A DNA stretch of 38,071 nt from Plicaturopsis crispa FD-325 SS-3. Lineage: Eukaryota; Basidiomycota; Agaricomycetes; Amylocorticiales; Amylocorticiaceae. The stretch's first letter is position 1. Each line of letters begins with the position of its first letter. Where the stretch lies: the NCBI GenBank assembly GCA_000827205.1, contig KN832567.1:97887-135957 (forward strand), given 5' to 3'. Made by a program: the position numbers and the translations under genes. The notes beneath the pieces are model-generated. The model searched no databases. It saw only the letters and a list, made by a program, of their open reading frames with translations, and was not told where the DNA came from. This document shows positions 1-38,071 of the stretch, one piece after another.

Positions 1-324
1 GTCCCATGATCCTGACACAATTTTGGTGCCATCAGGTGAGAATGCCACAGATTGCACCTCATTTCTATGGCCCTCAAGAACACTCAAGGCTGTTCTTGTG
101 GCTGCATCCCATATTCTTACAGTTTTGTCATTTGATCCTGACACAATTTTGGTGCCATCAGGTGAGAATGCCACTGAATACACCCAAGTTGTATGGCCCT
201 CAAGAACACTCAAGGCTGTTCCTGTGGCTGCCTCCCATATTCTCACAGTGTTGTCCCATGATCCTGACACAATTTTGGTGCCATCAGGTGAGAATGCCAC
301 TGATTGCACATGATGTGTATGCCC
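1..324 (-). repeat. WD40-coding tandem repeats, 126-bp unit (left)
   Basis: The 126-bp units start at 324 and 198, with a partial third from 72 to the edge. Each encodes a 42-residue WD40 blade of the form GHxxxVxSVAFSPDGTKIVSG. Units are nearly identical at DNA level. Changes cluster after GH (THHVQS, TTWVYS, RNEVQS) and just after VSGS (WDNT, NDKT). Confidence 0.93.
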
Positions 325-2980
325 CAATATTGTGCGCAACATAGATTTCCAGTTTCTGTTGACCCCACATAGAATCTTTGGCATATCAACTTTTTGTCTA
401 CAATATTCCTTCCTCAATTCCGTCTGGTATGGTGTCCAGAGCAGTGCAGAATGATATAACTCCATAGGTGATATTTTTATAACGTCCATGAATTCAAGCA
501 TGAACCTATGGATGTCATGGGCCAAGTTGAACACTTTTTGATTCTCTGATTTCTGTTACTTTGGTTAGTTGCTACATTATCTATTATTGCCTCATCACTG
601 ACCTTCAAGTTCACATACACAAGCAGTTGTTGTACAGCCTCTGCAGCAGCTTTCATATTATCTAACAAACTTAGACATTCAAGCCAATGCAATAGATGTT
701 TTTCCATGAACTCATCCAGCTCTGAATCAATGTTAAGGTTGACCCCTGCATTAAGATGTCTTGTCCAGTAGATACAAGCATATTTCATTGCATCTGATAT
801 GCCAGTTCCTATTGTTTTGGTATCAATATTCTCCAACAATGGGCGCCCAATAATGCTACACATATTTTGATGCAGGTTGAAATTCATATACTGTAGGCAT
901 TTTTTGGCTATAAATGCATGATGTTCCGCTGTGTCAACGGCAAAGTGAGAAGCACGTTCTTTGGAGATGAGAAAGTCAAAAAAAGAGGCATGGAATAATG
1001 TCATTGGATTATCCTTTGATTCTGGGATTTGCAGCAGAGAGCTGAATGGCTTCAACAAAGGCTCTGTATTTTGAGTGTACCCTAATAGCTCATTTATACA
1101 TGAAATGCTTTGAGGCATATACACAAGGAGAATTGTGTGCAAGATGTGCGACATCATATTAGTCTCCTGTGAACGCTGCCCTTTGATATTGAATGCAGCT
1201 TCCAGAACTTGCATATACAGTGCATCAAGGGTATCAAGAGGTTCTTGAAATTGACCTGCCACAATACTGTCCATAATGAGCTGGAGCCGATCAACAGGAT
1301 CTGCTGTCTCTGAGGACACAAATTGATAGACTGTGAATGCAAAGATGAATAGCTTTCCAGCTTCTTGGGTCAAAATATCAATGGTGGAAGCAGGGGGCCA
1401 GTCATTTGTTGATCCACTGATAGGATTCCGCAAGGAAGGATTCTTCTGCAGCTTTTCAGTCAAGTAAAGCTTGATGTCTCCAGTGACAATATCTGCCTCA
1501 ATATCATGCAAGTGCACCACCTGAGCAGAAGGCTCTGTGGATGCCGAACTTATATGCTGCCATATATTTGGGCGCCCAGTGACAAAAAAATGCAGATGAT
1601 TCAACTGGGAAGAATGGCTGTATATAATCTTCAACACTGCTTTGCCTGCATCATCTGCAAGCTCATCCAGAGCATCTAATACTATGTATACAGCAGACTG
1701 CTGGGCTGAATGGTGCATATTTAAAGCAGGCCCCAGGATAAGCTTTTGAAACTGCTGCTTCACATCATAAGACCCAAGGTCACATTCCTCTGTCAGGGCA
1801 TCTATGACACCAGCTGCAAATGCAGGATAGGTATGTGCTAGGAGATAGGAGATGGTGGAAAAGACACGCTTGACATCTTTGCTATCATCAAAGGCACGAT
1901 TGCAAAAGAAACTGGCACCCAGCATATTCTGGTCCTTGAGCTTCTGGGCCACAGATTCAGCTATGGTGGTTTTGCCAATGCCTGCCATGCCATTGAGCAA
2001 GTAGATCCTGGTGTTTGGGCTTCTAGTCCACTTTTCAATGTCTGAAAGAACCTGAACACGGGTGCCAGGAAGGCATCCAACATCATGGTTAAGTGTATCT
2101 CGTGATTCCAGTCTTGCTTGTTTGACACAAGCTAGTCTGTCCAAAAGGCCTAACAGAAAGAATGTCAGGTGCATGATAATGATTATGATCAAGAACAAAC
2201 CAATATTGGCCAGCTGAGGTGTAAACTTAGTTGCTATACTTCTGATAAAGAGTCCAGGTGCATACCTTGTCAATCACAATGTGATTCTGGATCACAGTTG
2301 CAAACTAGTATTTTTGAGAAGGTAAGCCATTTGAGATTCAGTGGATTGAGGCAAAAACTTCATACCACAAAGGTATTGATGGCATGAGATAAGCTGGCAA
2401 ATTCTTCTCCAATTGTTTTCTTGTCATCACTGTTGTCCAAGATCCGCCGCCAAGTCTTTGCATCAATTTTGGCCTTAACTTTTTCTGCAATTTGAGCTGT
2501 TTCTCTAATAGCCCAAGATTAGAGATATAAACTACACAGAGGAACATTTCAACATACTTCATAAATGCTTTTGCATAGGGCTGCAAGGCCAGTGGCAAGA
2601 TCCTATCTGCATCAGGAAGAGCAGAAGTGACTTCTGATAGCTGGCTCTCAAGCCTCTTGAAGCCATCATAGTTTTCATCTGTTTGCTGTAATGAAAAAGT
2701 CTCAGATAAGTCACTTCCTAGGGACTCATACACTCACTTCAATAGTCTTGACGATAAGAAGGACTCCCGACAAAACAGCCTTCAACCCCGGAACACTGAC
2801 ATCATCGAGAACCTCTTTTGCAGCACCCGCTAGGCCCTTGATAGCTTTGTAGACGGGGCTCTTGGTGACCTTTGAGGGTATAATGTGGCCCCCTGGGGTG
2901 CCAGCGCGACGCCAACTAAGGCGATCGCGGATCCTGCGGAATATGAGGCGGATCTTCTCTCTACGTAGTCCTTCAGGCAT
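1..2980 (-). CDS. NLR (NACHT-WD40) protein, left copy, 3' end outside window
   Basis: STAND-type NOD-like receptor, probably a cytoplasmic non-self or allorecognition sensor. Exons (minus strand): 2980-2738, 2685-2558, 2504-2366, 2304-2266, 2213-2201, 2149-603, 552 to the window edge; introns are 50-61 nt. Residues 1-187 form a helical N-terminal domain with a VPGLKAVLSG segment, a sort common before NACHT in Agaricomycete NLRs. The NACHT domain follows CLPGTR: P-loop GMAGIGKTT at about residue 241, Walker B IVLDALDE, and FFVTGRP. After a linker (LAHDIHRFMLEF) come WD40 repeats of 42 residues, two complete and a third cut by the edge. The intron at 602-553 has a clear AACTAAC branch point. 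From exon 2 on the gene is AT-rich compared with exon 1 and the flank. Function is inferred from family. Confidence 0.9.
2201..2213 (-). other. 13-nt microexon of left NLR
   Basis: Without this exon the flanking exons (ending IVIDK in phase 0, resuming at LLDRL with two leading bases) cannot be joined in frame. A CTCAG acceptor and a GTTTGT donor bracket 13 nt encoding LANI plus one base. They restore phase and split a 116-nt gap into introns of 52 and 51 nt. The right copy has the same arrangement with a perfect GTATGT donor. Confidence 0.72.
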
Positions 2981-3699
2981 CTTCAGTACGAGTGTTTTGC
3001 GATAAGTAGTCGATCGTTGTGCGATGGGCGAGAGATTCGAGCGAGACAGTGGTAGTGGTTCGAGTCAAGGAGGGAAGCGCCCGAGGGCGTGCGTTGGGCG
3101 TGGTATCGATGGTGCCACCGGGCGCTTAGCCGGCGCTGCGGCCAATGCTGATATTCACTCCGCATTTGGTAAAGAGGAGCCTGACTGCGGGCACAGCTTG
3201 CAGCTCATCGCTCAGACAAGGAAAAACGACGCCGAGCGCCGTCCGTACATACACGAGTACGCTCGATGAGCAAATAATATACTCCCGAGGACTACAGCAC
3301 AATTGATTACAACGGTGACTCGAAACTGCCTATACATCGCAAACAAGTTAGCACCTAGTCGCGGAATGATGTAGATGCTGCGCGTACTCACCAAACACTA
3401 GCCTCATATGCTGCCAACAGGACGCATGCATCCGTGGCGACAGAGGCACCTGCCGAGCTTATGCGCAGTGGCCACACTGGATTCGCGAGGACTGGAAAGT
3501 GACGGTGCGCGGGGAGTATAGCGAAGAAAGGCTGCGGGTTGGACAAGGGTCTGACGCGGGCCGCTCGAATGTCCAGGAGGCTGAGAGAGGACGCGTAGGC
3601 AGCCGATGCAGACGAGTTCCATGAACAGGTCACTACTAGAGCGCGTCGCCCAACGTCGGCGTCTAATGCCGTGACACCTACGCAGAGACATGCCGCGAA

Positions 3700-4560
3700 A
3701 CCTATGCAGAGACAACCGCAGGTTAGCACTCGTCACGCTCGCACAAAGCAACGACAACTTACCAGGCCATGGAACTCGCGTACAACATACATTTGCTGCG
3801 CTGAATCGCCCACCTACGCGAATCTCAGCAGCGCGCGAGCTCCCGCGGTCCAGACGCGAACGATGCGTTGCCGTTGGCGGGTCCACACGGGCGGCATTGA
3901 GCACGGCAGGTGCCGCGTACTGGCGACGGTGCACATGTTTGTCGCGTTGAGGAATGACGACCAGCGATGGCGATCCAGATCACCAACAACGCTGATACTT
4001 CGTCAGCGCCGTCTCTTTCTGGGTAGACCGAGGCGCGCAAATGGTATCCAGTGGAGAGGGACTGGGGGCGGCACCAGCGGAAGGTCGCCAGATATGCGAT
4101 CGCCAATCGCGAGAGCGGACGCATGCGGCAATCCATGGCGTCAACCGCGACATCCACGTCGAAAGACGCTATAGACAAGCGCAGGTCAGCTACTCGATGG
4201 CATCATCGCGTAAAACAGCGAAGACCCACTAGACCGCCAAAGACATGCTTGCTTCGCTTGAATCCCAGCAAGGATGCTACGCTGTCTCTTAATGGGTCGA
4301 CCGAGGGGTGCGAAAGGAATCCGGCGGGGAGGGACAACGGGCGGAACAGGCGGAACGTTGCCTGCTATGCGAACGCCAGTCGCGAAGAGATAGGGGACAG
4401 CAGATGCTTGCGGTAGTCACTGACATCAACCGCAACATACGAAGGACGCTAGACAGAAGCACAAGTCGGATACTCGATACCAAACAGCGACGACTCGCCA
4501 GATCGCCAAACGTAGATGCCCTCGTCGCTTGGCAACACGCCGGTGGAACGTGAGTTGGGC
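3700..4560. repeat. Diverged dispersed/tandem unit, three copies in left arm
   Basis: Related segments occur around 3,700-3,960, 4,030-4,290 and 4,300-4,560. Shared pieces include AAACAGCGA followed by an AGACCGCCAAA-like run, and GGACGCTA-like text upstream of it. Read on the minus strand, the shared part begins like an intron donor (GGTAAGT) and ends near a pyrimidine-rich TTTAG or CATAG. The right arm has only two comparable copies, around 33,360-33,600 and 33,760-33,960. This could be the remains of a short transposable element or of a decayed gene family; I do not recognise it. Confidence 0.5.
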
Positions 4561-5021
4561 GAGGTGCGCGATGCCGGGAGGGGAAGGCGCTCGTGTCCGC
4601 GCATGACCCTCCATGTCGACCGATGCCCAAGACCCAATTTGAAGACATTAATCATCACAAATGCGCGAGAGCTCTCTCTCTCTTTCCAGATGGACAGAAC
4701 CGTTTGATCGTTATCGCATACGGGCCTGGAAACGGGATCGGCGACGCGACGAGAGCACGGAGGGGCGGGGAGCGCGCCTACCCGAACCCTCGCTCGCGAT
4801 CGCCCATGCGCCACTCCCTCCTCATCCCCTTGACGCTCGCATCGACAGGATCGCAAGACGGCGATACCGACGACGCCAAGGACAATACTGACGGCGACAA
4901 CGGCGATATCGACGACGCGAAGGACAAACCACGTTGTTGGCGGTCTCAGTGATGCGGTGAGCGCGAAGGATGGGGAAGACTCGCACGGATACGGCGGGGG
5001 CCGGAGGGAGGCTGGGCGTGG

Positions 5022-5170
5022 CGTCGAGGGGGAGATGGCGTCGAGGGGGAGATGGCGTCGAGGGGGAGATGGCGTCGAGGGGGAGATGGCGTCGAGGAGG
5101 TGGTTGGCGTCGAAGAGGTGCACGACGTCGAGGAGGTGACGGCGTCCAGGAGGTGGATGGCGTCGAGGGT
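5022..5170. repeat. 17-bp minisatellite (left arm)
   Basis: Four perfect 17-bp copies of GTCGAGGGGGAGATGGC run from 5,023 to about 5,091, then four degenerate 17-18 bp copies (GTCGAGGAGGTG-like) to about 5,170. The right-arm counterpart near 32,495-32,535 has only about two units. Confidence 0.9.
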
Positions 5171-6037
5171 CGGACAGTCCTGTGAGTTCCCGCCAACTTG
5201 AATCTCGCCGTGTCACGGTTCCCGAATTGACGGTGTCGTGAGGGACTTCGCTGAGGACGGGGGGCGGGGATGGACATGCGGGCGTCGCAAGAGCACACGG
5301 TGAGTCGGGCCCACACGGATACAGCGAAAGTGCAGAGTTTGGAGGGAGTAGCGCGTACGAGCGGTGACGACTCCTGGTGTGGGTGTCAAAAGCAGCGGCA
5401 TAGCGCTAAGCGTTCAGGGCCTCTTTGAACGCGTGCATGGGTATGGAAAAATGCGTGAACTCACGTAGAAAACAACCCACACAGGAAGCCAAGGACAGCG
5501 CAGAACGGGCAGGCCGGAGACGCGCTCATCGCGTGGAACAAGTACGCGATAAAGTGAGTGTGGCGCGTCAGCGCAAGTTGATCGACCCGTCCCTATATTG
5601 ACGAAGCGGATGCTTGGAGGGACAGGGCTTGAGCATGTCGTCGTGGTCTGGTATCTTATGGAGTATAACGCGAAGAACAGGTTGCAGGCTTGCAGCAGGC
5701 TCAGCGGCGACAGTCGAGGAAGAGGTTATGGCATGTTTGTTTACTAGTGGCGTCGCGACAGGGCGAAATTGTGAAAGCTGTTCGTTTCTCCCCCGTATGC
5801 TGGCCGTAGGTATGATAACTTACCCTACTGGGTCTCGTGTATGAGCGGGGCTATATGTCGGCGCTATGTAAGAATTCACTGCACTGCACTGCCAGTCGTC
5901 ACGGTGGCGATGCCGCCATATACCCGCGCACGTTTCATGTCCAGGTTCAAAAGGGCGCGTCGGTCGTCTGCATCCGCCTTCTACCCCACAAACCTACTTA
6001 GTCGCTTCCCCCTGCTCTCACTAGTACCTACCATATA

Positions 6038-6759
6038 ATGCCTTCGTTTACACCGGACTCATCTCTAGAGCTCCTGTTCCCCTCCAATCTCATTTCTGCA
6101 GAAGTTAGAGCGGCGCTACCCGCGGATCTGCATGTACGTTCAGCTGCCACTTTCGCACCGTTAAAGCTCGTTGTCTGACGGCTTGTGTGGACGCAGATTC
6201 GCCCTTTGGCGTCTACGGACTACAAGCGCGGCCACCTCGCCGTCCTGTCCATGCTCACAGTCGTGAGCGACCCCGGCGAGGCCGCGTGGGTCGCGCAGTT
6301 CCACGCCATGCGCGAGGCGCCGCACACCTACTACCCCCTCGTCATCCTCGACAAACCATCCGACACCATCGTCGGCGTCGGCTGCGTGTTCATCGAGCGC
6401 AAGTTCCTGCGCGGGCTCGGGAGCGTCGGGCATATCGAGGATATCGCGGTGGACAAGAGCCAGCAGGGGAAGAAGCTTGGCTTAAGAATCATACAGGCCC
6501 TGACGTATATCAGCGAGAATAGTGGGTGTTATAAGACGATTTTGAATTGCAGCGAGAGCAATATACGTGAGTTTGGGCATGCGGTCGTGTTTCGTGGAGG
6601 CTGGCTGATGATGTGCTCTAGCGTTCTACGTGAAATGCGGGTTCGAGAGAAAGGAGTGCGAGATGGTGTGTTGCTCCATTCGTCGTCCTCATATAATACT
6701 AACATGTGTGTGTCAAGGCCAAATACGCGCCAGCGAGGACTCACTCGCCGAGGCTCTGA
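6038..6759 (+). CDS. GNA1: Glucosamine 6-phosphate N-acetyltransferase
   Basis: GNAT-family enzyme that transfers acetyl from acetyl-CoA to glucosamine 6-phosphate, a step towards UDP-GlcNAc and chitin; cytosolic. Exons 6038-6133, 6197-6566, 6622-6665 and 6718-6759 give 183 residues, the normal size for GNA1 (human about 184). Family features are IRPLASTDYKRGHL at the start of the fold, GHIEDIAVDKSQQGKKLG (acetyl-CoA pyrophosphate loop Q-x-x-G-x-x-G), GCYKTILNCSESN, and PFYVKCGFERKECEM near the end. The start is the first ATG in frame and gives a short N-terminal lead like that of homologues. The gene is convergent with POL2 (418 bp between stop codons). The inverted-repeat arm ends about 225 bp upstream, so the proximal promoter is unique sequence while the distal promoter would be arm-derived. 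Confidence 0.93.
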
Positions 6760-7177
6760 CCAAATTCGCACTTGGATTCCCCTGGCGGCGGGCCCATCTA
6801 TCATTCTATCATCTAGAGACACGGACGATACATCTATTATTGCGCACGCGCACACGGACAGTACCATACCTTCCCTAATCATTCATTACCTCGCTGGGCT
6901 GGCGATGGCCGTTGCCTCAATGCATGCATATATTGTTTTTGACTCTCTTGCGTGACGCGAGGGCGTGGGTCAAACGTCCGTACGCGTCATTCCAGAGATG
7001 TATCTGTGAAGGGACTTCCAAGTTGTTCCGCAGCTGTTGACTTCGAACCCGCGGTTTTGAAATGCAGTTTGGGGATATATATGTAGAAAGGATGGTATAA
7101 AATACAGTGTCAACATGCACGACATCTACACAAAGCTTCGAAAGCGACGACGATACAGTAGCAGTCCTCCACAACTT
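6760..7177. other. Intergenic, convergent 3' ends of GNA1 and POL2
   Basis: This 418-bp stretch between two stop codons presumably holds both 3' UTRs. AT-rich patches such as GGGGATATATATG near 7,071 are present. No further gene is supported. Confidence 0.6.
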
Positions 7178-10100
7178 TTACCAGTTGGCCAAACACGTCT
7201 CAGCGGTCTCCTGTGAAACATCATGAGTTGATGTAGCGCCACGCTGCAACAGGGAGCACATACCTTTAACCGCTTTAGGTTGTGAATATTCGCAACATTG
7301 GCGATGGTCTTCAATTTTCGCTTGACGTCGGCCTTATTCAACGTCAGCTGATACGCCCCCGAACACTGGCAGTATCGCGAAACGTTGTCAGACTGGATCT
7401 GCTTGCACTTCGCGCACCGCAGATCCTGTTGCGCGAACGCCCGCTCGAGGTTGTGCACCATGCCGATGAGCGTGAGCTCAATGCCTGCGCGGTCGTACTG
7501 AGCACCGCAGTTCGCGCACAGCCAGTGCCGCGACATCTCGACGCTATTGGGAACGAGCTCCTGGTCACGGCAAAAGTCAAAATCGCGCAGGGCATCGCAG
7601 TTGTGGCAGGGGACGTTGGCGAGCTTCAGAGGCTCGCAAGGGTTGCGGAAAGTGGCCTCGCTGGCAAACTCGCGCACATTGATGAGCTCGAGGAGGTTTC
7701 GTTTCAGAAGGCCTATCTCTACGCTGTACTCCCTGGCGAGGGAGAAAGCCGCGCAGACGAACTTGACAAACTCGAGAGTGGGGTTTTTGAGGATGAGGTG
7801 CGATCCGGGAAGGGAGGGGAAGTCGAATTGTGCTAGCGCTTCCTTGTCGCTCTTAGCCTCCTCGTGCCGCTGCTGGATGCTCCCAACGACTTTTAGCATC
7901 TTCCGCGTGAGCCTGCGGGCAATAAACTCGCGGGTGAGTTCCATTTCCTTCACCTTGCCCGCATCGCGCTGTGTCGCGTCTGGTGCAGCATTCTGGAGGA
8001 CACGCAGCGGTACGCGGGAGGCATCGTTCATCTTTTGGCGAGCTCTGAAGAGCTCGACGATGAAGAACTGGAGCACCGTGCTGAAATCCTGCTGGATTGC
8101 AGGCGGCAGGAAAGTGCCGATATTCCATATCATCTCGAGGGCGAGCTCTTGAGGTGGCTCTATCGCGAGCGGGTCCTCGCAAACAATGCCGCCCATGTTT
8201 GCTTGGTCCATAAAGAGGAGGAAGTCGTAGAATTTTTCGGTATTCAGATAGACGTGCTGGAAAAGCTCGTGGGACGTGACCGCTGTGTTGATATACGTCG
8301 CATAGGCGTGCGCTGTTCCGGGCGGTTTTGAGGTGGCCAGGAGGATATGGCTGAAGTCAGCGTAGACGACGTGCGACCCTAGCCGCTTAAACTCGGCAAG
8401 TAGTTGTATGAACGTCTTCCGCATCAGTCCGTGGATGAAACGGTGGATGCTGGGGTCGTACATCTGGGACGCGCTCGAGCTTATCCACCTCCAGAAATGG
8501 TCAATCGCCAGAGTCGCAGGACTCGTGAAATCACCCTGAATCTTGTCCAGCAGCCACGACTTGATCATCGTCTTCAAGATCCCGAACGTTTGGGCGGACA
8601 CGCTGGATTCGCCGAGGGTGAGGTCGCGATGGTCTTCCCCGGCAGCATATTCGTCCAAAGTACGCGACACGGAGTCGAAGGCAGTGGCCCCTCCACTACC
8701 CTCGAGTTCGTTGACCATGACGGAATGTAAAACGGAGTTGACCGCAAGATTGCGAACGGTGATATCGAGACAAACAGTCGGGTAACACCCCGGTGAGACA
8801 AACTCGGTACGCGGGAGCTCCTCGGTAGGCCTACTGTCTTCTTCGATGCCGCCCAGGTCTGGTCGCTCCTCGGGAGACCACCAAAGGACTATATCCTGCT
8901 GCATGAGCCGACGAGCAAAACTGATGTCCGAAACGAGTAACGGCTGGTCGCCATCGATATGCCCCACAGGAATATCGTAGTAGTCCGCCGTGGAGATCAA
9001 GCGGCCAAGCCACCGGCCCATCGAGAGGTACCGACCGAGCATCCTGGAGGCAATGTTTGCGTGCCACGGAAAAACGTCCAGCGTGTGGGGGCTCTTCGTC
9101 TTCGGCATCGAAAGAACGGGAAATTTCGCCAATTTGGGAATGTGGTGGTCGAAGTATACCTGCTCCTTCATGGACGAGATGACAACCGTATGCGACTTCC
9201 CCTCCATAAGGCTAAGCTCGCGCGAGATCGCCTTGAACGCGGCGGCTTCGGTGTTGTGGTACGTCGTAGTGAATTCTCTGGAAGATGGATACACGATGGG
9301 ACCCGACGACGTTCCGTGTGCTTTCTGCTCCTTGCGCAGCAACTCCGTGTAAACCTGGTCGAATCTGCCGAGGGATTGGCGCTCTTTGCTGGTGTCGATG
9401 ATATGCAACTTGACGGATGTATGAGGGAAGAAAAGCGCGAAGACGTGGATGGGCTGGTTGGCCGAGCACGCATGGTAGAGCATGATGTATTTGCCGTTAT
9501 CACCGCCCGATAGGTATTTCTGGCGCGTAGACGAGGAGCCAGCGCGATCGAGTTGTTTGAGATCGAGACCATTATTTTGCGCCCTGTTCAGCGTCATACT
9601 GGAATCCTCGACTGTGCATGTCTTGCCAAGCTTGAGGATACCTCGGACGGCCAAGGGCACCTGCGTACGCACTCAGCAGCTATTCCAACCATGTCAAAAG
9701 CCCCACTCACATGTTGCTCAAAGACACCAATAACGTTCGGATCGTTGGTTAGATCGATGAAGTGCTCGTGGATCTCTTGGTACGTCTCTTCACGGACCAC
9801 CAATTTGTAAAGGTTCGACGACTGTATATCCCGTGGTAGATTCCGGGCAACCTTCTCGCAAGAGTAGTACTCTTTTCGGAACAGACTCGGCTTGGGCGGA
9901 GTCCTGAGATGTAGATAAAACTCGCGCGGGATCCGTATAGGTATCGCCACGAGCGCGGAGTCGACCGAGAGCCACATGTTGAACCGGCCGGGCACCTTCG
10001 TGGAGCGGATCTGCACGATGTCCCAGCGGTGATTCGTCCGCTCTGTGGAGCCTCTGAACATGCCTGGGATGATGGTAGAGGATTCCGTACCCCAGCGACG

Positions 10101-13100
10101 TTGAAGCTTCTGCCTCCACTGAGGCTTTATCGCCTCAAGGTATTGGAGGTAGTCTACGTGAGCATCGGGAATTGGTGTCGTAGATACAGGATCCTCAGCC
10201 GTGGGCGAATCCGCTCTGGGAGCGGCTTTGCGCTTGACCACGGCTATGCGCGGACGACCGCTGGTCGATGCGCCCTGAACGGAGTCCTCGATGTCGACAT
10301 CCATGGAGTCCGAAGCGGGGCGATGCTCTGCGGTCACCTTCGTGAAGAAATCCGTCACTTTATTCTGCTTGAACTTATCGACCGCGCCAGCCACCCGCCG
10401 ATGAAGCCAGTCCGGATGCCTAATCCGAGGAACGGGGTTGGACACTTTCTGCATCGCAGCAGGAATCGTTATCAGTTTCTGGATCACCGAGCCCAGGCGC
10501 TCGATGTAATACCCCCAGTCAAGAATGGAGCGCAGCTGGAAGTCCACGAGGCTGCTGTCCTTGAGCCATTTGCGGAGGTACAGCCGCTTCACGCTCTCTT
10601 CGGCGGAGAATATAGCGACGGGGACTGCGCGCTCCGTCACAGGCGCGCCCATAGGTTTCGCAGAGATGATGAATTTACACGCGAGGCCCTTGTCCTTGAC
10701 CATCTGGTCGCCGAGGAATTCGGCAAGGCGCTTCGCGGTGCTGATACTTGTGGATTTCTGGCCCCCGTACTCCGCGAGCGTCTTGGACATGCTGCGGTTC
10801 TCGGCGATGAGCTCGACGAGCTCGTCGTCCCCGAGTGTATCGGCCTTGCTGAATAGCACGTCCAGCCATTGGTCTGCGACCTGGGCGACGGCGGCGTAGC
10901 ACTCCTCCGTGGTCGAGCCGAGTAGGAACTTTTCGAAAATCTGAGACTGGAAGATCTTGATGAGCTGGAGCTCGCCGCGCCGTTTGACTTCGAACCCCTT
11001 CAGCTCCGCCAGCGATCCATCGTCATTGAAAACAGCGTAACGCTTCTTCAACAATTTATCCTCCTCCTTGGACGACGGGAGGATCATAGCCCTGTACGGC
11101 CCGTCGAGCTCGAAGAAGATGGAGTTCTCGCTGTGGACTTTGTACTCCCCAGTGTCGGGGTCGAGGTCGTGGTACTGGTGATTCGTGAACTGCGCGTGCA
11201 CGAGGTGGTTGAGCATCGTGCACGGGTACGAGAACGCGATCGATTTCCCATTATCCAGCTCAAACTTGAAATTCTCCGGGAACACCCCCGGCAGCATGCA
11301 CCATATCCCGTCCGTGTCCAGCTCCAGCGGCCTCCCAATCTGCTCGACGAGCGCGCGCGCCATCTGGATGATCGTCGCGCCCGTGAGGCACGTAATCCCC
11401 GCCATCTCCATCGAGTGCCACCTCGCGCCCTTGCGCATGACGTACCCATAGAACGAGTTCAAGATGACCTTGTGCGCGAGCTGGAGCGAGTCGTACAGCA
11501 CTATCATCTTCCTTGCCTCGTCGACCTCCGCGACGGACCTTCCCTCCCCAACGACCTTATCGAGCGTCTTCTTCCACGTCTTGTGCAGGCCCTTGTACTC
11601 GTACCGCCGGTCGCGGAAGCGCCGCACGGTGTCCACGTAGAACGGGTTCTCCCGCTGGCACACGATCGCCTCCCGGTTCTCGATCTTCGTGTCCTTCGTC
11701 TTCTTGTACACCTTGCGCGAATAGTCCCCCAGCCTTTTATGCAGCAGCGCCGTCTGCTCCGCCTCGCTCAGGTCGGGGAACCGCCGCGCCGGGCCATTAG
11801 GCTTCTTGGGCGGGAAGGATTCTTGGTTGAGCGCGTGCTTGATCATGTTGAACTCGTCGCGGTGCGCGGGGAAGAACTCGCCGCGCCACGCCCAGTCGAG
11901 TCGCCGGTCGCACGTCTTCCCGGGCCGGTTGTAGTCGCACACGGCGCAGACGGACTCGGAGACCATGGAGTCTGGCTGCAGGCGGTTGGAGAGCATGATG
12001 TTGGGGTACATGGCCGCGACGTCGAGGTGGTAGATGAGCGGCGGGTCGGTGCGCTTGGGGGCGCCGCGCATGAGCTCGAGGGCGGACTGGATGGAGGCTT
12101 TGACGGAGTCGTAGTTCGTGACGCTGGTGATGGAGGTGTTGGACTCGTCGACGATGCAGAACATGAGGGCAGCGTCGAGGTCGTCGATGAGCTGCACGCA
12201 AATTATGTTCAACATTACATTAGTCGGCGAGCGTAGATAAAAAGTTACCTGCTGCACAGCGGACGGTTCAATCTTAAAATCAATCGGGATGTCGCTACGA
12301 AAAACACCAGCCTCAAGGGCCTCGACGTGGCCACCAACATACGTCTCCGATGCTAGCAAGTGCCCGTCATACATATTCCCGTGCGCCTCTTCGTGCCGAT
12401 TCGGCATAATGATCTCCCCTCGGTATGCTTCAACCTACACAGCGCTCGAGGTGAGTCCGGGCTTGAATAGGGCGAGGTGAACCATACCATGAGGAGTGTC
12501 TCGCACAGCGTGCCCGTACCCTTGCGGAGCACCTCGTCGGGGCAGAGCGGAATGATGTTGCACAGCGAGAAAATGAACGGGTGCACGTATTTCATGTACA
12601 GGTAGTACGTCGCCACCGCGTCCGAGACGGAGTACTGCGCCAGCACTTGCGGCTGCTCCATCGCATACCTATCCATCACCACCATCAGCTCCCCTTCAAA
12701 CTCCAATACACAACGCGCTTTCACTCACGGCGTCATCAACTCAGGATCCAGCTCGATCGGATTATACCCCAATTTCGACGTAGTGACCGCCTTGAGGCCC
12801 TGGCTGCCTTGCGGGAGGTACGAGTCGCGCTTGACCCAGCGGAAGGCGTCCATGTGCACGCAGGTGCGGCTCTTGTACTCGTCCTCCGCGTCCTTCGCGA
12901 ACCCCGTCTCGAGGAACATGTCGATCCCGTTCGCCTTTGCGCGCGCGTCCAGGAACGGGAAGTCGAAAAAGTCCCCGTTGAAGGTCGCGATCACCGTAGG
13001 CTTCACTTCTTGTATGTGCTCGAAGAATCGCCGTATCGTAGCCGCCTATCCACCCTTCTTATTAGCCCGTCTCCAGAAACACACACACGAGGGAAGAGGA

Positions 13101-16504: not shown

Positions 16505-16516
16505 GATTTTTTCATT

Positions 16517-27728: not shown

Positions 27729-30700
27729 TTACTGCACCTTGATCAGCCACATACTCCACGCGACGAGGACCACTGGCACGACCGACACCATCTCCCCGAG
27801 CGCCGCATATTCCGGCGGGACACGCACATCCACAAACGCCCCCGCCGCCAGCAGCACCGCGCCCAAATTATACACAAAGCTCCACACAAAGTTCAGCACG
27901 ATGCGGTGCCCCGCGCCGCGCGACACCGCCAACACCACGCGCACGCTGCGCGCCAAATCCACCCCGTCCCCGTCCCCGCCCGCATCTACGACGACAACGT
28001 CTGCGGCGCTCACAGCGATGTCCGTCCCGCAGCTCAGCGACACCCCGACGTCCGCCTGCGCAAGCGCCAGCGCGTCATTGCTCCCGTCCCCGAAGAACAT
28101 CACCTTGGCCCCGCCCACTTCCTTCTGCAGCGCACGCACCCGCGCGAGCTTCGCCTGCGGGGTGCACCCACCGTGCGCGCGCTCCGCCGGGACACCGAGC
28201 TGCGCAGCGAGCGCATCGACCGCGCGGGGCTCGTCCCCACTGACGATGTGCACCGCCACGCCGCGCCGCGCCAGCAGGTCCACCACGGGCTTAGCGGACG
28301 CGCGCGGGGTGTCCGCAAGCCCGAAGGCCGCGAGGAACACGCCGCCACGGGTGACGGCGAATAGAGTGAGGCATTTGGTGCGCATTGTCTGGATGGCGGT
28401 GTGCGTATTGAGGTCGAGCCAGGTGGCGTTCCCGCCGCGGATGCGCACGCCGGCGTGCTGTGCTTCGATTCCGTGCCCTGGTACCTCGGTGATGTGGCCC
28501 AGGGGAGCCTCCTTCATACTTGGGTCAAGCGTGTGCATGTACCGCGCGATGGCCTGGGCAACCGGATGGCGACTGCCGGAAACGAGGCCGAGAACCAGGG
28601 CTGCGCAATCGTCTGAGGCAAAAGACGCCTCGACGACAGAGAGGCGACCTGTTGTCAGTGTCCCCGTCTTGTCGAACACCGCCGTGCGCGCAGTTTTGGC
28701 GCATTGCACGGCCTGGATCGACTATGACGCCCAACCACACGCTCTCAGACAATGCCGCAACTTGAAAATGAAACGCACCGACTTTGAACAGGACACCCTC
28801 CCGAGCGGCGACGGCCGCGGATATGACCGCGACCATTGGCACGCACAGCACGAGCGCGCACGGGCATGACACTACGAGCACCGCGATCGCATACCCAAGC
28901 GCCGTGACCCCCGCCTCCTGCGATTCCTGCCCACGCACCCGCACGCCCACCGCCATCCACACCGCAAACACAAGCATCGCCGCAGCGAGAATCACAGGCG
29001 CGAGCCACGCCGCAGCCTTATCCGCAACATCCTGCACACGCAGCCGCGAGTCCTGCACTTGCAGGAGCAGCCGCGCGATGTCCGCGACGGTGTTATCCGC
29101 GGGCGCTCGCGCGGCGGTGAGCTCGAGCGCACCGTGCAGGTTCAGCGTGCCCGCCGTGAGCGCGGAGCCGGGCGCCTTCGCCACGGGCGCGCTCTCTCCC
29201 GTCAGCGCGGCCTCGTCCACCGCGCTGTGCCCGCGCGCGACGACGCCGTCCGTGGGCACGCGCGTACCCGGCGCGATCCGCAGCCGGTCGCCCTCGTGCA
29301 CGAGCGCGGCCGCGATCGTGCGGACAGACCCATCGGCGGCCACGAGCTCGACGGTGTCCGGCTGCAGCGCGGCGAGGCCGTCTAGAGCGGCGGTTGCGCG
29401 GCGCCGCGCGTAGGCGGAGACTAGCCGCCCGAGCGTGATCAGCGTAATGAGCAGCGTGGGCGTCTCGAAGAAGGGCGCGGGGAACGCGCGGTGCGCGGCC
29501 TGCATGCCGAGCGCGGCTGCGGAGAACAGGTATGCGATGGTGGAGCTCAGCACGACGAGCAGGTCCATGTCGAGCGTGCGCTGCAGGAAGAGCGAGCGCA
29601 GCGCGGAGGAGTACAGCGGCGCGCCGACGAGCGCCTGCACGAGCGTCGCCAGCGCGAGCGACGCCCCGCCGTACACGAGCGGCCGCGGGGGGAGCGGCGC
29701 CCACGCGAACACGAGCACCGGGATGGTGAGTAGCGCGGAGAGGGCCGTGCGCCAGGCGAGCGTGCGGAGCTCGCGCGCGGCGTGGGCGGTGGCTGTCGTG
29801 CGCGGCGTCGGCACGAAGACGCCCCCGAACGCAGCGACGACGGCGCGTGGCTGCACGAGCGCGGGGTCGTACTCGACGTCCAGCACGACGCGCCCGCCCA
29901 CGCGCTTCTCCGCTCGAACGGCCACGCCCGGCGGCAGCTTCCCGTCACCATCTCTGTCCCACGCGTCCACGCTCACTTTCAGCACCCTCGTGCGCCCCCC
30001 AAGCGGGCCCTCGTGCACCACTGCACACGCAAACCCCGTGAGGACGGTCGCGCGCGCGGCGATGTCCTCAGGGCGCACGGCGCCCTCGGCGTATGTGAGC
30101 GCGGCGCGGTGCGCGAAGCTGCTCACGCGCACGTCTGCGACGGAGGGGAGTGTAAGGAGGGCGCGGGTGAGCTTGGTGGCGCAGGAGGGGCAGTCCATGC
30201 CGCGCACGCTGAGGAGGAGCGTGCGCGGGTTCGTGGCGCCGCGTTCGGGGTCGGGGTTTGAGGTAGGTGTAGGTTTCGCGGCGGGAGTCGGTGGGGGCTT
30301 TGAGGGAGATGCATGTGTGGGTGGGGTGTGGGTGTGTGTTGAGTGGTGATGGTGATGGTGGCGGCGCCAGTCGACGAGGCAGCAGCACGCGGCCTCGAAG
30401 AAGCGCCCGAATGTGCGCTCGATCTCGCATTTCTGGTGTCGGCTGTGATTGTGCTCGCCGCTCTTATGTGTGTGCCGTCCACCCTTATCGGCGTGTTGTC
30501 CACCCGTATGGGAGTGCTGTCCAGTCTTGCGGGCATGATTGTGTTTATGAGCGTGTATAGCGCGACGCCGCAGGACAGGTTGGGCATGTACAATCGCTTT
30601 CGCCGAGCCGGCCGCATATTTCGCTGACGTCGGGTCTGTATGCACAAGTACTCAGCATCGCTGTGCAACATGGACAGTAAGATATACACACGTTCGCTGG

Positions 30701-31468: not shown

Positions 31469-34400
31469 GGTGGTGGGAGATAAGAGTCAGACTGAGAGTG
31501 TGGGTGCTGTGTTTTCTACTTGAAGCCCTGGGGGACACGAGGTTGTGCGGCTGTGCCCGAGATAGGTTGGTGCGACACGTGTAGAGGTGCTGGGGCGGGG
31601 AAACTGGAATGGTCATTGGGAAGTCGCGAGGGAGGTTACATATTTGTGGTGCAAACGCGCTCGGCCTCGACTCTGGAGCACTTTTGTCTCATCGAGGGAA
31701 ATGGTACGCGTCCATCGGGGCTCTTGTCAAACAACGCTTTGCGAGATACACAGTGTCAGTTTCGCGCACATATGAAGGTCGATCTAAATGGCACTCACCA
31801 AGGCACTTCGCCGAAAAGCCTGCTGCTGGCTGGTATCGTTTCAAGCTGCTATCAATAATGATCATACGGCCGAGAAACGAACGTCGAACACGACAGCTTA
31901 TAATTTCGCCCTGTCGCGCCACTAAACAAACATGCCACAACCTCTTCCTCGACTGTCGCCGCTGAGCCTGCGGCAACCTGTTCTGCGCGCTATACTCCAT
32001 AGGATACACGACCACGACGACATGCTCAAGTCCTGTCCCTCCAAGCATCCGCTTCGTCAATACAGGGACGGGATGATCAATTTGGGCGGACGTGAAACCC
32101 GCCACCGTCGTATCCTATTCCGTACACTCCGAGTCACGCTATCGCGTACTTGGAAGTTGGTACACGCGATGAGCGCGTCTCAAGCCTGCCCGTTTTATGC
32201 GCGGTAACCTTGGATTACTGTGTTGGTTGTTTGCTATGTGAGTTCACGCATTTTTCGACGCCCATGCACGCGTTTAAAGAGGCCCCAAACGCTCAGTGCT
32301 ATGTCATATCTGACACCCACACCAGGAGTTGTCGCCGCACTCGTACGCGCTACCCCCTCCGCCCTCATGCGACTTTGCTGTGGTCTTCTGGCCATCCGTG
32401 TGGGCCCGACTCTCTTGCAACGCCCGCATGCCCATCCCCCCGTCATTTCGAGAACACGGCGAGATCGGGAAACGGGAACTCAAAAGACTGTCCGACTCTC
32501 GACGCCATTCGCCTCCTCGACGCCATGCTCAACTTCCCTCCGGCCTCCGCCAGCTGTATCCGTACGGACGAGCATAACTCCTGCATCGCACGCAACTCCT
32601 GCACCGCACGGAGTCGTCTCCATCATTCGCGCTCACCGCCAACACCACCGAGAAGATCGCATTTCCTCCTTTTCGCCGTCAATATCCCCTTGGCGTCGTC
32701 GATATCGCCTTCGTTGCCGTCGGTATCGCCGTCTTGCGCTCTCATTGATGCAAGCACCAAGGGGATGAGGAGGGATTGGTGCATGGGCGATCGCGAGCGA
32801 GCGTTCGGCTCGGCGCGGTCCCTCCGTGCTCTCGTCGCGCGCCGTCGATCCCGTTTCCAGGCCCGTATGATAGCTTAGGCCATCGTCGGTTGTATGCGCA
32901 TCTGCTCGCTCGATTTCTCCATCCCGGATGGTGCGAGGCTTCGCGGCTGCAACGGGACTCGATACTCGCAATTCATCCACGCGTAAATCGGCACCAACGC
33001 GTCCCCACTGGAGAATCCCAAGTCATCACTCGCGGCCGCGTCGCCCTCCCTCCTACACCGCATTCTGACGGCGAAGAGTACTTCGGACCTACGTGCGAGT
33101 GCACCGGTGCTGCCAGCCTCGTCGTTCGCGAGGTTTTTGCTCACTTATCCGCCCATCCACGGCCACTTGCAGCTTGACCAGGCGGATCTTCATCCTGAAC
33201 GCTATCGTGCCCACCGCTCGTGGTGCCCTCGCGAACAATAACGATAACGCGTCCTGTCCATCTGGAGAGAAGGAGTTTGCTTTCGCGTAGTCATGCGCAG
33301 ACACGAGCGGCATTCTCCTCTCGGCCTCGCGCACCTCGCGCGACTCTCGTTCCACAGGCGTGTGGCCGAGCGACGAACGCATCGACGTTTGGCGGTCTGG
33401 TAAGTTGTCGCTGTTTTACGCGATGATCGCATCGAGTATCTGACTTGTGCTTCTGTTTAGCGTCCTTCGTATGTTGCGGCTGATGTCAGGGATTACCGTG
33501 GGCGTCTGCTACCCCCTACCTTCCGCGACTGGTGTTCGCATAGCTGGCAACCTACCGCCGGTGCCGCTCGTAGTCCCTCCCCGCTGGATACTGTTTGCGC
33601 GCCCTGGTCGGCTCGAGAAGACACGGCGCTACGACGACAAATCGACTTTTGCTCATTATCCTTCAGCACGACAAACGTGTGCACAGTCGCCAGTACGCGG
33701 CACCTACCGTGCCCACTGCCGCCCGTGGCGGACACCCAAACGATAACGCGTCGCTCGCGTCTGGACTGCCGGAGCTCGCGCGCTGCTGAGATGGGCGTAG
33801 GTGGGCGATTCAGTGCGGCGTGTGTATGTTGTACGCGAGTTCCATGGCCAGGTAAGTCGTCGCTGCTTTGCGCGATCGTGACGAGTGCTAACCTGTGGTT
33901 GTTTCGGCGTTAGGTTCGATGGCATTAGACGCCGACGTGGTCTAGTATTAAACTGTCCGTGGAACTCGTCAGCATTGGCTGCCTGGGCGCGCTCGCTAAG
34001 CCTCCTGAACATTCGAGCGGCCGGTGTCAGACCCATTGTCCAGCTCGCAGACTTTCTTCGCCATGATCCCGGGCACACGGTCTCTTCTAGTAAACACGAA
34101 CGTCGTGTAGTTGCGCACAGGGTCCCCAGCTATGTCTTCGCCGTAATCCCTGCGCACACGGTTTCCTCTAGTCGACACGATCTCAGCTCAGCCACTGCGC
34201 GTGGGGTGCTAACTTATCTGCGTCGCCTATGCAGTGCTGGGTCACCGTTATAAACAATTGTGTTGCATTCCTCGGGAGTATACTGTTTGTGTATATGAAG
34301 CCGTACTCGTGTATGTACGGACGACATTTGGCGCCATGTTTCCTTGTCTGTGCGATGAGCTGCAAGCTGTGCCCGCAGTACGGCTCCTCTTTACCAAATG

Positions 34401-34582
34401 CGGAGTGAATATCAGCATTGGCCGCAGCGCCGGCTAAGCGCCCGGTGGCACCATCGATACCACGCCCAACGCACGCCCTCGGGCGCTTCCCTCCTTGACT
34501 CGAACCACTACCACTGTCTCGCTCGAATCTCTCGCCCATCGCACAACGATCAACTACTTATCGCAAAACACTCGTACTGAAG
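31469..34582. other. Cu ATPase promoter plus gene-free upstream part of right arm
   Basis: The first 390 bp or so is unique sequence upstream of the Cu ATPase. From about 31,860 the sequence is the inverted counterpart of the left arm. It holds two copies of the diverged unit (around 33,360-33,600 and 33,760-33,960) and a short version of the 17-bp minisatellite. The final 250 bp or so is the promoter of the right NLR, nearly identical to that of the left copy. No gene is supported here. Confidence 0.7.
33360..33960. repeat. Diverged unit, two copies in right arm
   Basis: Two segments share GGTAAGT, GTCGCTG and CGCGAT in order, at about 33,401 and 33,853, followed by a pyrimidine-rich stretch ending TTTAG or GTTAG. 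They correspond to the three-copy set in the left arm. The first is a mix of the two adjacent left units, as if a tandem pair had collapsed or expanded. Confidence 0.5.
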
Positions 34583-37500
34583 ATGCCTGAAGGACTACGT
34601 AGAGAGAAGATCCGCCTCATATTCCGCAGGATCCGCGATCGCCTTAGTTGGCGTCGCGCTGGCACCCCAGGGGGCCACATCATACCCTCAAAGGTCACCA
34701 AGAGCCCCGTCTACAAAGCCATCAAGGGCCTAGCGGGTGCTGCAAAAGAGGTTCTCGATGATGTCAGTGTTCCGGGGTTGAAGGCTGTTTTGTCGGGAGT
34801 CCTTCTTGTCGTCAAGACCATTGAAGTGAGTGTATGAGTCCCTGGAAAGTTACTTATCTAAGGCTTTTACATTACAGCAAACAGATGAAAACTATGATGG
34901 CTTCAAGAGGCTTGAAAGCCAGCTATCACAAATCACTTCTGCTCTTCCCGATGCAGATAGGATCTTGCCACTGGCCTTGCAGCCCTATGCAAAAGCATTT
35001 ATGAAGTATGTTGAAATGTTCCTCTGTAGTTTATATATCTAACCTTGGGCTATCAGGGAAACAGCTCAAATTGCTGAGAAAGTTAAGGCCAAAATTGATG
35101 CAAAGACTTGGCGGCGGATCTTGGATAACAGTGATGACAAGAAAACAATTGGAGAAGAATTTGCCAGCTTATCTCATGCCATCAATGCCTTTGTGGTATG
35201 AATTTTTTGCCTTGATCTAATAAATCTCAAATGGCTTACCTTCTCAAAATACTAGTTTGCAACTGTGGTCCAGAATCACATTGTGATTGACAAGGTATGT
35301 ACCTGGACTTTATATCAGAAGTATAGCTACTGAATTTACAACCCAGCTGGCCCATATTAGTATGTACCTAATCATTATAACCATTATCATCATCATGTAC
35401 CTGACATCCTCTCTGCTAGGTCTTTTGGACAGACTAGCTTGTGCCAAGCAAGCAAGACTAGAATCACGGAATACAGGAAACCATGATGTGGGATGCCTGC
35501 CTGGGACCCGTGTTCAGGTTCTTTTGAACATTGAAGAGTGGACCAAAAGCCCGGACACTAGAATTTACTTGCTCAATGGCATGGCAGGCATTGGCAAAAC
35601 CACCGTTGCTGAGTCTGTGGCCTGGAAGCTCAAGGGCCAGAATATGCTGGGTGCTAGTTTCTTTTGCAATCGTGCTTATGAAGACAGCAAAGATGTCAAG
35701 CGTGTCTTTTCCACCATCTCATACCTACTAGCACATGCCTATCCTGCATTTGCAGCTGGGGTCATTGATGCCCTGACAAAGGACTGTGACATTGGGTCCT
35801 ACCATATAAAGCAGCAGTTCCAAAAGCTTATTCTTGGGCCTGCTTCAGCAATGCAATATCTGGCCCAACAGCCTGCTGTACATATAGTGATAGATGCTCT
35901 AGATGAGCTTGAAGATGATGCAGGCAAGGCTGTGTTGGATCTCATATATAGCCATTCTGCAGAGTTGAAACATTTGCACTTTTTTGTCACTGGACGCCCA
36001 AATATATGGCAGCATCTGAGTTCAGCCTCAGCAGAGCCATTCACTAAGGTGGTGCACTTGCATGACATTCAGGCAGATATTGTGACCAAGGACATTGAGC
36101 TTTATTTGACCAAAAAGCTGCAGAAAAATTCTTTTCTGCAGAATCCTAACAGTGGATCAGCAGAAGATTGGCCTCCTGCTTCTACTATTCATATTTTGGC
36201 TCAAGAAGCTGGGAAGCTATTCATTTTTGCATTCACAATCTATCAATATGTGTGTTCACCAACTGGAGATCCTGTTGATCGGCTCAAGCGCATTATGAAT
36301 GGTGTTAAAGCTGGTAAATTCAGTGATCCTCTTGATGTACTTGATGCACTGTATAACCAAATCCTGGCAGCTGCAGCAAATATCAAAGGGCAGCTTCTTG
36401 ATGAGACTGAGATGATGCCGCATATCTTGCACACAATTCTCCTTGTGTATAAGCCTCAAAGTATTTCATGTATAAATGAGCTATTAGGATACACTCAAAA
36501 TACAGAGCCTCTATTGAAACCATTTAGCTCCCTGCTGCAAATTCCAGAATCAAAGGATCATCCAATAACATTATTTCATGCCTCCTTTTTTGACTTTCTC
36601 ACCTCCAAAAAACGTGCTTCCCACTTTGCTGTTGACACAGCAGAACATCATGCATTTATAGCCAAAAAATGCCTACAGTTTATGAATTCCAACTTGCATG
36701 AAAATATGTGTAGCATTGTTGGGCGCCCATTGTTGGAAAACATTAGCCTTGAAACAATAGAAACTGGCATATCAAATGCAATGAAATATGCTTGTATCTA
36801 CTGGACAAGACATCTTAATGCAGGGGTCAGCCTTGATATAGATTCAGAGCTGGATGAGTTTATTGGAAAACATTTGTTGCATTGGCTTGAATGTTTGAGT
36901 TTATTGGGTGATATGAAAATTGCTGCAGAGGCCATACAGCAGCTACATGTGTATGTGGACTCCAAGGTCAGTCATAAGATAATAGCCAATACAGAAGTTA
37001 CTAATAAAAGTGTTCCAGGAATCAGAAAATCAAAAGAACTTAGCCCACGACATCCAGAGGTTCATGCTTGAATTCATGGACATTATAAGAATGTCACCAA
37101 TGGAGATATATCATTCTGCACTGCTCTGGACTCCATACCAAACAGAATTGAGGAAGAAATATTTCCGTGAGCAAAAAGATGTGCCAAGCATTCTATGTGG
37201 GGTGAATAAAACATGGAAGTCTATGTTGCGCACTATATTGGGACATACAGAGTGTGTGAGTTCCGTGGCATTCTCACCTGATGGCACCAAAATTGTGTCA
37301 GGATCAGATGATGAAACTGTGAGAATATGGGATGCCGCTACAGGAGCAGCCTTGAGTGTTCTTGAGGGTCATACAAAATATGTGCAATCTGTGGCATTCT
37401 CACCTGATGGCACCAAAATTGTGTCAGGATCAGATGACCACACCATAAGAATATGGGATGCAGCCACAGGAGCAGCCTTGAGTGTTCTTCGGGGCCATAC

Positions 37501-38071
37501 AGATTCGGTGCAATCCGTTGCATTATCACCTGATGGCACCAAAATCGTGTCAGGATCAAATGACAAAACTGTGAGAATATGGGATGCAGCCACAGGAGCA
37601 GCCTTGAGTGTTCTTAAGGGTCATACATTTAATGTGAATTCAGTGGCATTCTCACCTGATGGCACCAAAATTGTGTCAGGATCAAGGGACTGCACTGTGA
37701 GAATATGGGATGCAGCCACAGGAACAGCCTTGAGTGTTCTTCGGGGCCATACAGATTCGGTGCAATCTGTTGCATTATCACCTGATGGCACCAAAATCGT
37801 GTCAGGAGCAGAAGACAACACTATAAGGATGTGGGATGCAGCCACAGGAGCAGCCTTGAGTGTTCTTGAGGGCCATACAGATTGTGTGAATTCTGTGGCA
37901 TTCTCACCTGATGGCACCAAAATTGTGTCAGGATCAAATGACAAAACTGTGAGGATATGGGATGCAGCCACAGGAACAGCCTTGAGTGTTCTTAAGGGTC
38001 ATATGGATTGGGTGCGATCTGTGGCATTCTCACCTGATGGCACCAAAATTGTGTCAGGATCAGATGACCAC
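34583..38071 (+). CDS. NLR (NACHT-WD40) protein, right copy, 3' end outside window
   Basis: Paralogue of the left NLR in inverted orientation. Exons 34583-34825, 34878-35005, 35057-35195, 35256-35294, 35347-35359, 35420-36966, 37019 to the edge; every internal exon has exactly the length of its left partner. The N-terminal 81 residues differ from the left copy by one residue (Val for Ile), but 13 of 100 residues differ around the P-loop GMAGIGKTT (about residue 241). Walker B is IVIDALDE. The exon 6/7 intron has a TACTAAT branch point and is needed to reach LAHDIQRFMLEFMDI and the WD40 repeats; reading through it stops at 37,071. Six full WD40 repeats and part of a seventh are visible. It is probably a non-self recognition sensor, by family. 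AT-rich from exon 2 onwards. Confidence 0.91.
35347..35359 (+). other. 13-nt microexon of right NLR
   Basis: Bracketed by ACCCAG and a perfect GTATGT donor, it encodes LAHI plus one base and is the only arrangement I found that joins IVIDK to LLDRL in phase. The flanking introns are 52 and 60 nt. Confidence 0.75.
37241..38071 (+). repeat. WD40-coding tandem repeats, 126-bp unit (right)
   Basis: Units start at 37,241, 37,367, 37,493, 37,619, 37,745, 37,871 and 37,997 (partial). They are nearly identical, and most changes fall at the codons after GH (TECVSS, TKYVQS, TDSVQS, TFNVNS, TDSVQS, TDCVNS, MDWVRS) and after VSG (SDDE, SDDH, SNDK, SRDC, AEDN, SNDK). TDSVQS occurs twice with an identical surrounding block, a sign of recent copying. 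Confidence 0.96.

Follow-up and report, generated by a model that had tools for sequence, protein, structure and literature searches.

Why do both ends of a 38,071-nucleotide stretch of contig KN832567.1 carry the same NOD-like receptor (NLR) gene, facing away from the ordinary genes between them? The stretch, called the window here (G000:C14:97887-135957; the contig is C14 of the 49 in a 33.2-Mb genome), had been read in a preliminary description as a pair of outward-facing paralogues on inverted arms, with recombination between them able to flip the block inside. We found that the window ends belong to a local three-gene cluster of NACHT-WD40 NLRs. Sequence comparisons suggest that the three genes have exchanged stretches with one another, and their bodies are strongly depleted in CpG. 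From the pattern of these CpG deserts we infer long-lasting CpG methylation linked to in-frame tandem repeats.

The window ends in two inverted gene copies

Two inverted copies of a NACHT-WD40 NLR gene, each with about 2.8 kb of upstream DNA, fill the window from 1 to 5.8 kb and from 31.9 to 38.07 kb. The left copy, B, reads leftwards and the right copy, C, reads rightwards, both facing away from a block of about 26 kb. A repeat search returned 27 inverted repeat pairs in the window, and all 25 that were listed connect the left end with the right end. The arms align by blastn at 7-4241 against 37558-33388 (83.8% identity over 4,271 columns), and smaller aligned pieces extend the homology to 5781/31893. 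Per 150-column bin, identity is 79-91% at about 771-2261 and 95-100% at about 2262-3224; upstream it is mostly 75-90% and rich in indels, with some bins of 42-52% where the arms fail to align. B and C share an identical run of 170 bases. NLR exon edges come from a simple predictor whose first run fused nearly all genes; a stricter run missed several genes, and all gene edges given here are approximate.

1-2980, minus strand: left-arm NLR gene (copy B), truncated in its 3' part by the window end; Pfam NPHP3_N/NACHT and 126-bp WD40 repeats
1-325, about 369-552 and about 603-2213, minus strand: WD40 repeats, linker exon and NACHT exon of copy B (predictor exons)
About 2366-2504, 2558-2685 and 2738-2980, minus strand: N-terminal exons of copy B, start codon near 2980 (predictor exons)
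2981-5781, no strand: left-arm upstream DNA, homologous to the right arm
31893-34582, no strand: right-arm upstream DNA, homologous to the left arm
34583-38071, plus strand: NLR gene copy C (right arm), mirror of B, ending inside the WD40 array; Pfam, inverted homology and open reading frames

Both copies have the domain architecture of an NLR. Their NACHT-part frames are open (598 and 594 amino acids) and match NPHP3_N and NACHT above the Pfam cut-off, and a GIGKTT P-loop was found in B and in C. Over 100 residues near the P-loop the arms differ at 13, exactly the count given in the preliminary description. Both window ends carry 126-bp repeats with Pfam WD40 matches; the units are 87-89% identical in DNA within B and within C, giving C-terminal repeats of high internal conservation. 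The spliced 183-residue N-terminal model matched no Pfam family at E up to 0.1, HET included, and the best Protein Data Bank (PDB) match to the NACHT exon reached only E 0.48. Upstream DNA of the left arm is probably non-coding because its indels are many. We rejected a dispersed repeat as its source: genome matches are nearly confined to the C14 copies, with at least two short 70% matches on contig C3 beyond them. The same gene in opposite orientation at both ends, as first described, is thus real, its shared upstream DNA measuring about 2.8 kb where about 3 kb had been estimated.

A third copy lies outside the window

The two arms are members of a larger group. A third copy, A, sits 14 kb further left at C14:83501 to about 89.2 kb, in the orientation of B, with its WD40 repeats and 3' flank beginning at 81.7 kb. 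Beyond the arrays, homologous sequence reaches to about C14:81.7 kb for A, 95.8 kb for B and 139.1 kb for C. The outer arm ends, for which self-alignment of the wider region had been proposed, therefore lie at about C14:95.8 kb and 139.1 kb. These outer 3' ends are 81.0% (A-B), 79.2% (B-C) and 80.5% (A-C) identical.

Arm symmetry is in part an effect of how the window was chosen. Both window ends abut runs of N that interrupt the WD40 arrays of B and C, and another such run lies in the array of A. The gene copies fall at the exact ends of the window because the gap-free stretch stops at these runs, between breaks in near-identical repeats.

Orientation does not single out the B-C pair. Genome-wide there are 15 NPHP3_N matches: three on C14, two each on C22, C10, C5, C3 and C1, and one each on C6 and C11. 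They form four neighbouring pairs within about 50 kb (A-B and B-C on C14, one on C22, one on C10), two outward and two tandem; with no excess of outward pairs, we rejected a special role for that orientation. We also rejected the idea of a mobile element made up of the block and bounded by the arms as its terminal repeats, because the arms are gene copies and a third sits outside. The layout of outward paralogues bracketing a block stands, but a privileged pair finds no support: there are three copies, and their orientation is unremarkable among NLR neighbours. Another outward-facing NLR pair occupies C22:99248-103000 and 121500-126700; these genes are 69% alike over one alignable NACHT stretch and 85% alike in their repeat units.

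The three copies appear to be mosaics of one another

Along the gene, the best identity partner changes among A, B and C. We scanned 537 informative sites for mosaic tracts, with 2,000 shuffles per tract; none of the 2,000 matched the observed score for any of the three tracts found.

421-666, minus strand: A and C closest (A-C 93.3% against A-B 81.7% and B-C 80.8%; 37 of 50 informative sites)
1151-2161, minus strand: B groups with A (96.3% to A, 83.0% to C; 152 of 184 informative sites)
2653-3224, minus strand: first exons of B and the DNA just upstream group with inverted C (97.8% to C, 82.3% to A; 93 of 104 informative sites)

Trees of the tracts, rooted with the C22 genes as outgroup and compared by approximately unbiased (AU) tests, conflict between parts of the gene. 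Tract 1151-2161, in the NACHT part, groups A with B, and the other pairings are rejected (AU 0.021 and 0.042). Tract 2653-3224, in the N-terminal part, groups B with C, and again the other pairings are rejected (AU 0.005 and 0.018). In mid-NACHT, A and B are separated by a synonymous distance of 0.056, B and C by 0.523, and A and C by 0.631. The ratio of nonsynonymous to synonymous change over the NACHT exon is 0.25-0.28, so all three copies look constrained by purifying selection; their NACHT frames contain no stop. Three tracts with different partners, together with the conflicting trees, support A, B and C as probable mosaics of one another, with exchange that would take in same-strand and inverted copies alike. 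The earlier suggestion that conversion between the arms could shuffle NLR sequence draws support from the same evidence.

WD40 units share a backbone and vary at few positions. From 54 units found we used 48, dropping 6 as truncated or irregular; 19 belong to the cluster (A 1, B 4, C 14). Mean unit identity is about the same between genes A, B and C (86.1-88.1%) as within them (87.1% in C, 88.9% in B). Units of the cluster are 78.0-82.0% identical to those of the two C22 genes, which in turn are 85.1% identical between the two genes and 83.9-84.1% within them (2 and 6 units), with 69% over one alignable NACHT stretch. The five most variable of the 42 unit positions are 41, 42, 20, 2 and 18, ranked by measured variability. 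Positions 42, 2, 18 and 20 match by spacing codons 7, 9, 25 and 27 of Podospora anserina repeats, and the residue combination at these four differs in every one of the 19 cluster units. In P. anserina WD40 repeats, codons 7, 9, 25 and 27 are described as positively selected, with conserved codons 8 and 26 between them (sections of PMC1805685), and concerted evolution and repeat instability of WD40 arrays are likewise on record (PMC1805685, PMC2873952, in part).

NLR gene bodies are CpG deserts

CpG is strongly depleted in NLR gene bodies. The ratio of observed to expected CpG (O/E) there is about 0.0-0.4, against 1.0-1.3 in sampled surroundings. NACHT exons of A, B and C have O/E 0.16-0.19, compared with 1.04-1.26 in five block genes; TpG and CpA together exceed expectation (1.51-1.56), with no loss of GpC.

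1-2700, minus strand: CpG desert over the body of B (nine 300-bp bins, each O/E 0.00-0.43)
34801-38071, plus strand: CpG desert over the body of C (eleven 300-bp bins, the last cut, each O/E 0.07-0.38)

The shortage is also seen across codon boundaries. There we counted 1 CpG in B against 29.1 expected and 1 in C against 26.9, whereas POL2, a block gene, has 131 against 115.6. TpG at the boundaries of B numbers 75 against 49.8 expected.

Deserts coincide with NACHT and WD40 stretches. In one-kb windows of C14, C22, C6, C5, C10 and C1, 35 of 168 had O/E below 0.55, and by coordinates all 35 sit in or directly beside such stretches. Borders fall mostly within 250-750 bp, but on its far side the right-hand C22 gene has a ragged one of more than 1 kb; in the C5 gene, O/E is 0.49-0.71 over a stretch in the middle. 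In B and C the desert leaves out the first coding exon and begins just after it; at most loci it ends about 0.5-0.8 kb beyond the last listed WD40 match.

Across the genome, 12 of 15 NACHT loci are depleted. The three that are not (C1:1522 kb, C3:1174 kb and C11:540 kb) have O/E 1.02-1.09 in 2-kb pieces. Among the matches listed (150 scored of 470 candidates), WD40 lies at or near 11 of the 12 depleted loci and none of the three undepleted (Fisher 0.009, in a comparison made after the pattern had been seen); the C5 array is 5 kb from its NACHT match. In the gene at C1:3448 kb depletion sets in only at about 3448.25 kb, together with the array, and in the C3:2184 kb piece O/E climbs from 0.12 to 0.73 with distance from the array. 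DNA methylase domains are present on C10, C2 and C7. We rejected repeat-induced point mutation (RIP) of the ascomycete type, which changes C to T mainly at CpA and inactivates: here CpG is depleted, TpG plus CpA is in excess and the NACHT frames of A, B and C have no stop.

Depletion extends to other tandem-array genes

Genes with tetratricopeptide (TPR) arrays show the same shortage. We picked five TPR-array loci from 79 Pfam matches (about ten array-like groups) before their composition was seen, and pieces of 400-500 bases were depleted at all five (O/E 0.13-0.25). Genome profile searches placed no NB-ARC or NPHP3_N match near these loci, although another kind of NTPase could escape them; the genome has a single NB-ARC match, at C10:727 kb. 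The tandem array, rather than NLR identity, therefore seems to be what the depleted genes share. Two of two other WD40 gene pieces, three DNA-methylase loci and one C3 locus are not depleted.

The TPR-array genes lie at C12:188 kb and 206 kb, C13:954-957 kb and 1008 kb, and C15:154-155 kb, with 120-bp units in the pieces read. Some are close together on opposite strands (C13:954 and 957 kb).

Weighing the readings

Taken together, the evidence makes it probable that an HNWD-like cluster of three genes has become mosaic by exchange and carries CpG deserts from old methylation, with the block as a bystander. The genes would have arisen by duplication of a unit of about 8-9 kb, comprising gene and upstream DNA. 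Gene conversion, perhaps with crossover, among same-strand and inverted copies may keep the backbone shared, while rearrangement and selection of WD40 repeats could vary the sensor face. Long-lasting CpG methylation tied to in-frame tandem repeats, with deamination to TpG and CpA, would account for the deserts, much of the loss presumably predating the split of the three copies. The 26-kb block would take no part in this, and recombination between the inverted copies could in principle turn it round.

Several observations weigh against this account. On the side of exchange, tract borders and tree tests share the same data. Tree tests on 421-666, 667-1150 and 2162-2652 favour no pairing, and the whole-gene tree, in which A with B is best, keeps B with C (AU 0.117) and only just rejects A with C (AU 0.046). 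The assembly is a single gapped one, with N in all three arrays, and an assembly error joining A to C would imitate some of the mosaic pattern; the longest identical A-C run is, however, only 58 bases. The nearest relative of a WD40 unit is mostly in its own gene (12 of 14 in C, 3 of 4 in B), and no pair of compared units from different genes exceeds 95% identity, so the units do not demonstrate recent exchange between genes. On the side of methylation, CpG-type changes account for few of the transitions between one copy and another (28 of 223 for A-B, 20 of 250 for A-C, 10 of 221 for B-C). Most CpG loss thus looks older than the split of A, B and C, and it is not what separates them now. Three short reverse-transcriptase pieces, of 42 matches, are not depleted, a misfit with a general repeat-methylation system. 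The NACHT locus at C10:727 kb is depleted with no WD40 array listed, while a 600-base piece just downstream shows neither depletion nor repeats, and in two of the depleted TPR pieces the repeat self-identity is only 61-62%.

A single event could stand in for repeated exchange. A past crossover between A and the inverted C would have flipped 47 kb, with B and the block inside, leaving A and C as hybrids of two former genes, one of them a sister gene almost identical to B. Joining A to C with a switch at about 2351-2421 does yield a hybrid that differs from B at only 94-95 of 2,188 sites (A alone 186, C alone 233), A and C are most alike near that point (90-96% per bin at about 2262-2710), and the upstream DNA past the tract, taken overall, places B nearer to C than to A. 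Yet any hybrid picked for its fit will reduce the number of mismatches, two independent conversions account for those sites equally well, and the outer 3' ends show no clear preference of B for A; we regard the crossover as unlikely. The model first proposed, in which B and C are arms of an inversion switch and the block occurs in two orientations among strains, seems highly improbable. Inverted arms sharing a 170-base identical run do stand on one gap-free 38-kb stretch, but the third copy makes the B-C pair non-exclusive, and both ends of the stretch lie in repeats, so that its orientation in the scaffold rests on links across gaps. That the arms are haplotigs, misplaced alleles or a fold-back would agree with the N runs in all three arrays and with accounts in part of PMC12222747 that Illumina-based assemblies of such arrays are unreliable in P. 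anserina. The arms nevertheless differ by a few to about 25% according to region, have different neighbouring genes, stand on one gap-free stretch and are not the only copies, a third existing, which makes such an artefact very unlikely indeed. Divergence had already been held to argue against a fold-back, and we agree.

The deserts themselves might reflect codon or base-composition bias, as in recently acquired AT-rich genes, with no methylation involved. NLR bodies are indeed poorer in GC (38-48%, one C1 stretch 53%) than the neighbours measured (48-69%), and the small share of CpG-type changes among copy differences would suit a bias. Such a bias sits poorly with the excess of TpG plus CpA and undiminished GpC of the NACHT exons, with CpG missing and TpG in excess at codon boundaries, with close-set borders that spare the first exon in B and C, and with depletion of TPR arrays while three NACHT loci escape. 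We consider it distinctly unlikely, and return to methylation as the preferred cause of the deserts. A bolder form of it holds that in-frame tandem arrays, in WD40 NLRs and TPR-array genes, mark host genes for germ-line CpG methylation, so that near-complete CpG loss in sensor genes, while conversion reshuffles the copies, would amount to a locus-specific regime of mutation plus exchange. In the window the mark would begin right behind the first exon and run through the gene body until beyond the array end. Because the three sampled reverse-transcriptase pieces are not depleted, this regime would be distinct from transposon defence. We put it forward tentatively and think it rather unlikely, the more so because CpG-type changes are few among the present differences between copies.

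The block and its surroundings

The block, at about 5.8-31.9 kb, holds about eight genes, in agreement with the eight ordinary genes first described. Pfam supports five of them.

6038-6600, plus strand: GNAT acetyltransferase (GNA1-like); Pfam Acetyltransf_1 and coding scan; divergent from B; edges approximate
7264-14077, minus strand: POL2, DNA polymerase epsilon catalytic subunit; Pfam POL2_thumb, DNA_pol_B, DUF1744 and zf-DPOE; model and coding scan; edges approximate
23830-25043, plus strand: MO25; Pfam Mo25, E 1.2e-129; model
26565-27368, plus strand: glutathione transferase; Pfam GST_N/GST_C; PDB matches including Ure2p forms; model
27732-30234, minus strand: heavy-metal P-type ATPase; Pfam E1-E2_ATPase and HMA; coding scan; divergent from C; edges approximate

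Three further genes (fasciclin-like, ferric-reductase-like and FAD-monooxygenase-like) were named by eye, and the pieces of them that were scanned had no Pfam match. The predicted glutathione transferase appears to resemble Ure2p-type forms. In the region of the ferric-reductase-like gene, a 24-bp tandem repeat occupies 18613-18800 (5.5 copies, 98% matches).

Around the cluster, two pairs of duplicated C14 segments lie between or beside the NLR copies: 71705-72397 with 92550-93361, and 79848-80366 with 91869-92392. One pair is inverted (77-84%) and one direct (70%). Two adjoining, similar reductase-like genes, named by eye from open reading frames, lie to the right of copy C (L017 3812-7597). 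The contig start, checked for a telomere, holds N letters only.

Comparison with known systems

As a cluster, the locus is a clear example of biology already known. Like the HNWD genes of P. anserina (het-d, het-e and het-r), a family that controls heterokaryon incompatibility, the window NLRs combine NACHT with highly conserved WD40 repeats, vary at the same positions and have arrays that are hard to assemble; they may act as receptors of the kind known from the HET-D/HET-E family. HNWD and other NWD genes also give conflicting trees for different gene parts and exchange repeats between genes, according to sections of PMC12222747. Unlike HNWD, the window NLRs have an N-terminal model that lacks a HET domain match, form one cluster with an inverted member and lie in CpG deserts. 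Low annotation of NLR N-termini is described as usual in basidiomycetes in the part of the literature we drew on.

Fungal NLR clusters with proposed unequal crossover and conversion are known from a survey of Sordariales (PMC12258605, in part). It groups consecutive NLRs lying less than 40 kb and fewer than eight other genes apart, a rule to which the window comes close, with about eight genes between B and C. Clusters of close paralogues such as this one are uncommon there (16 of 272 in the portion of PMC12258605 consulted), and the host of the window probably belongs to another phylum; small introns, base composition and gene types point to a probable agaricomycete. The cluster is useful in that exchange can be mapped tract by tract within one genome.

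The CpG deserts are a more surprising result than the inverted pair. If the methylation reading is true, immune receptors with open frames would have been methylated for long, and the trace, following tandem repeats and not gene family, would tie immune diversity to mutation and to the recognition of repeats. We found no report in the open-licence literature of CpG depletion confined to tandem-repeat NLR genes, although one may exist. According to one review, fungi have largely lost gene-body methylation, and most Basidiomycota restrict CpG methylation to transposon-rich regions (PMC13297926). CpG-biased mutation in Basidiomycota is reported for transposons and genome-wide (PMC4014442, PMC5870257, PMC4352252, each in part). 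Like that RIP-like, CpG-biased mutation and methylation, the deserts carry a CpG to TpG signature in a genome with DNA methylase domains. Unlike it, the signature here is, as sampled, confined to tandem-repeat and NACHT genes whose frames are open.

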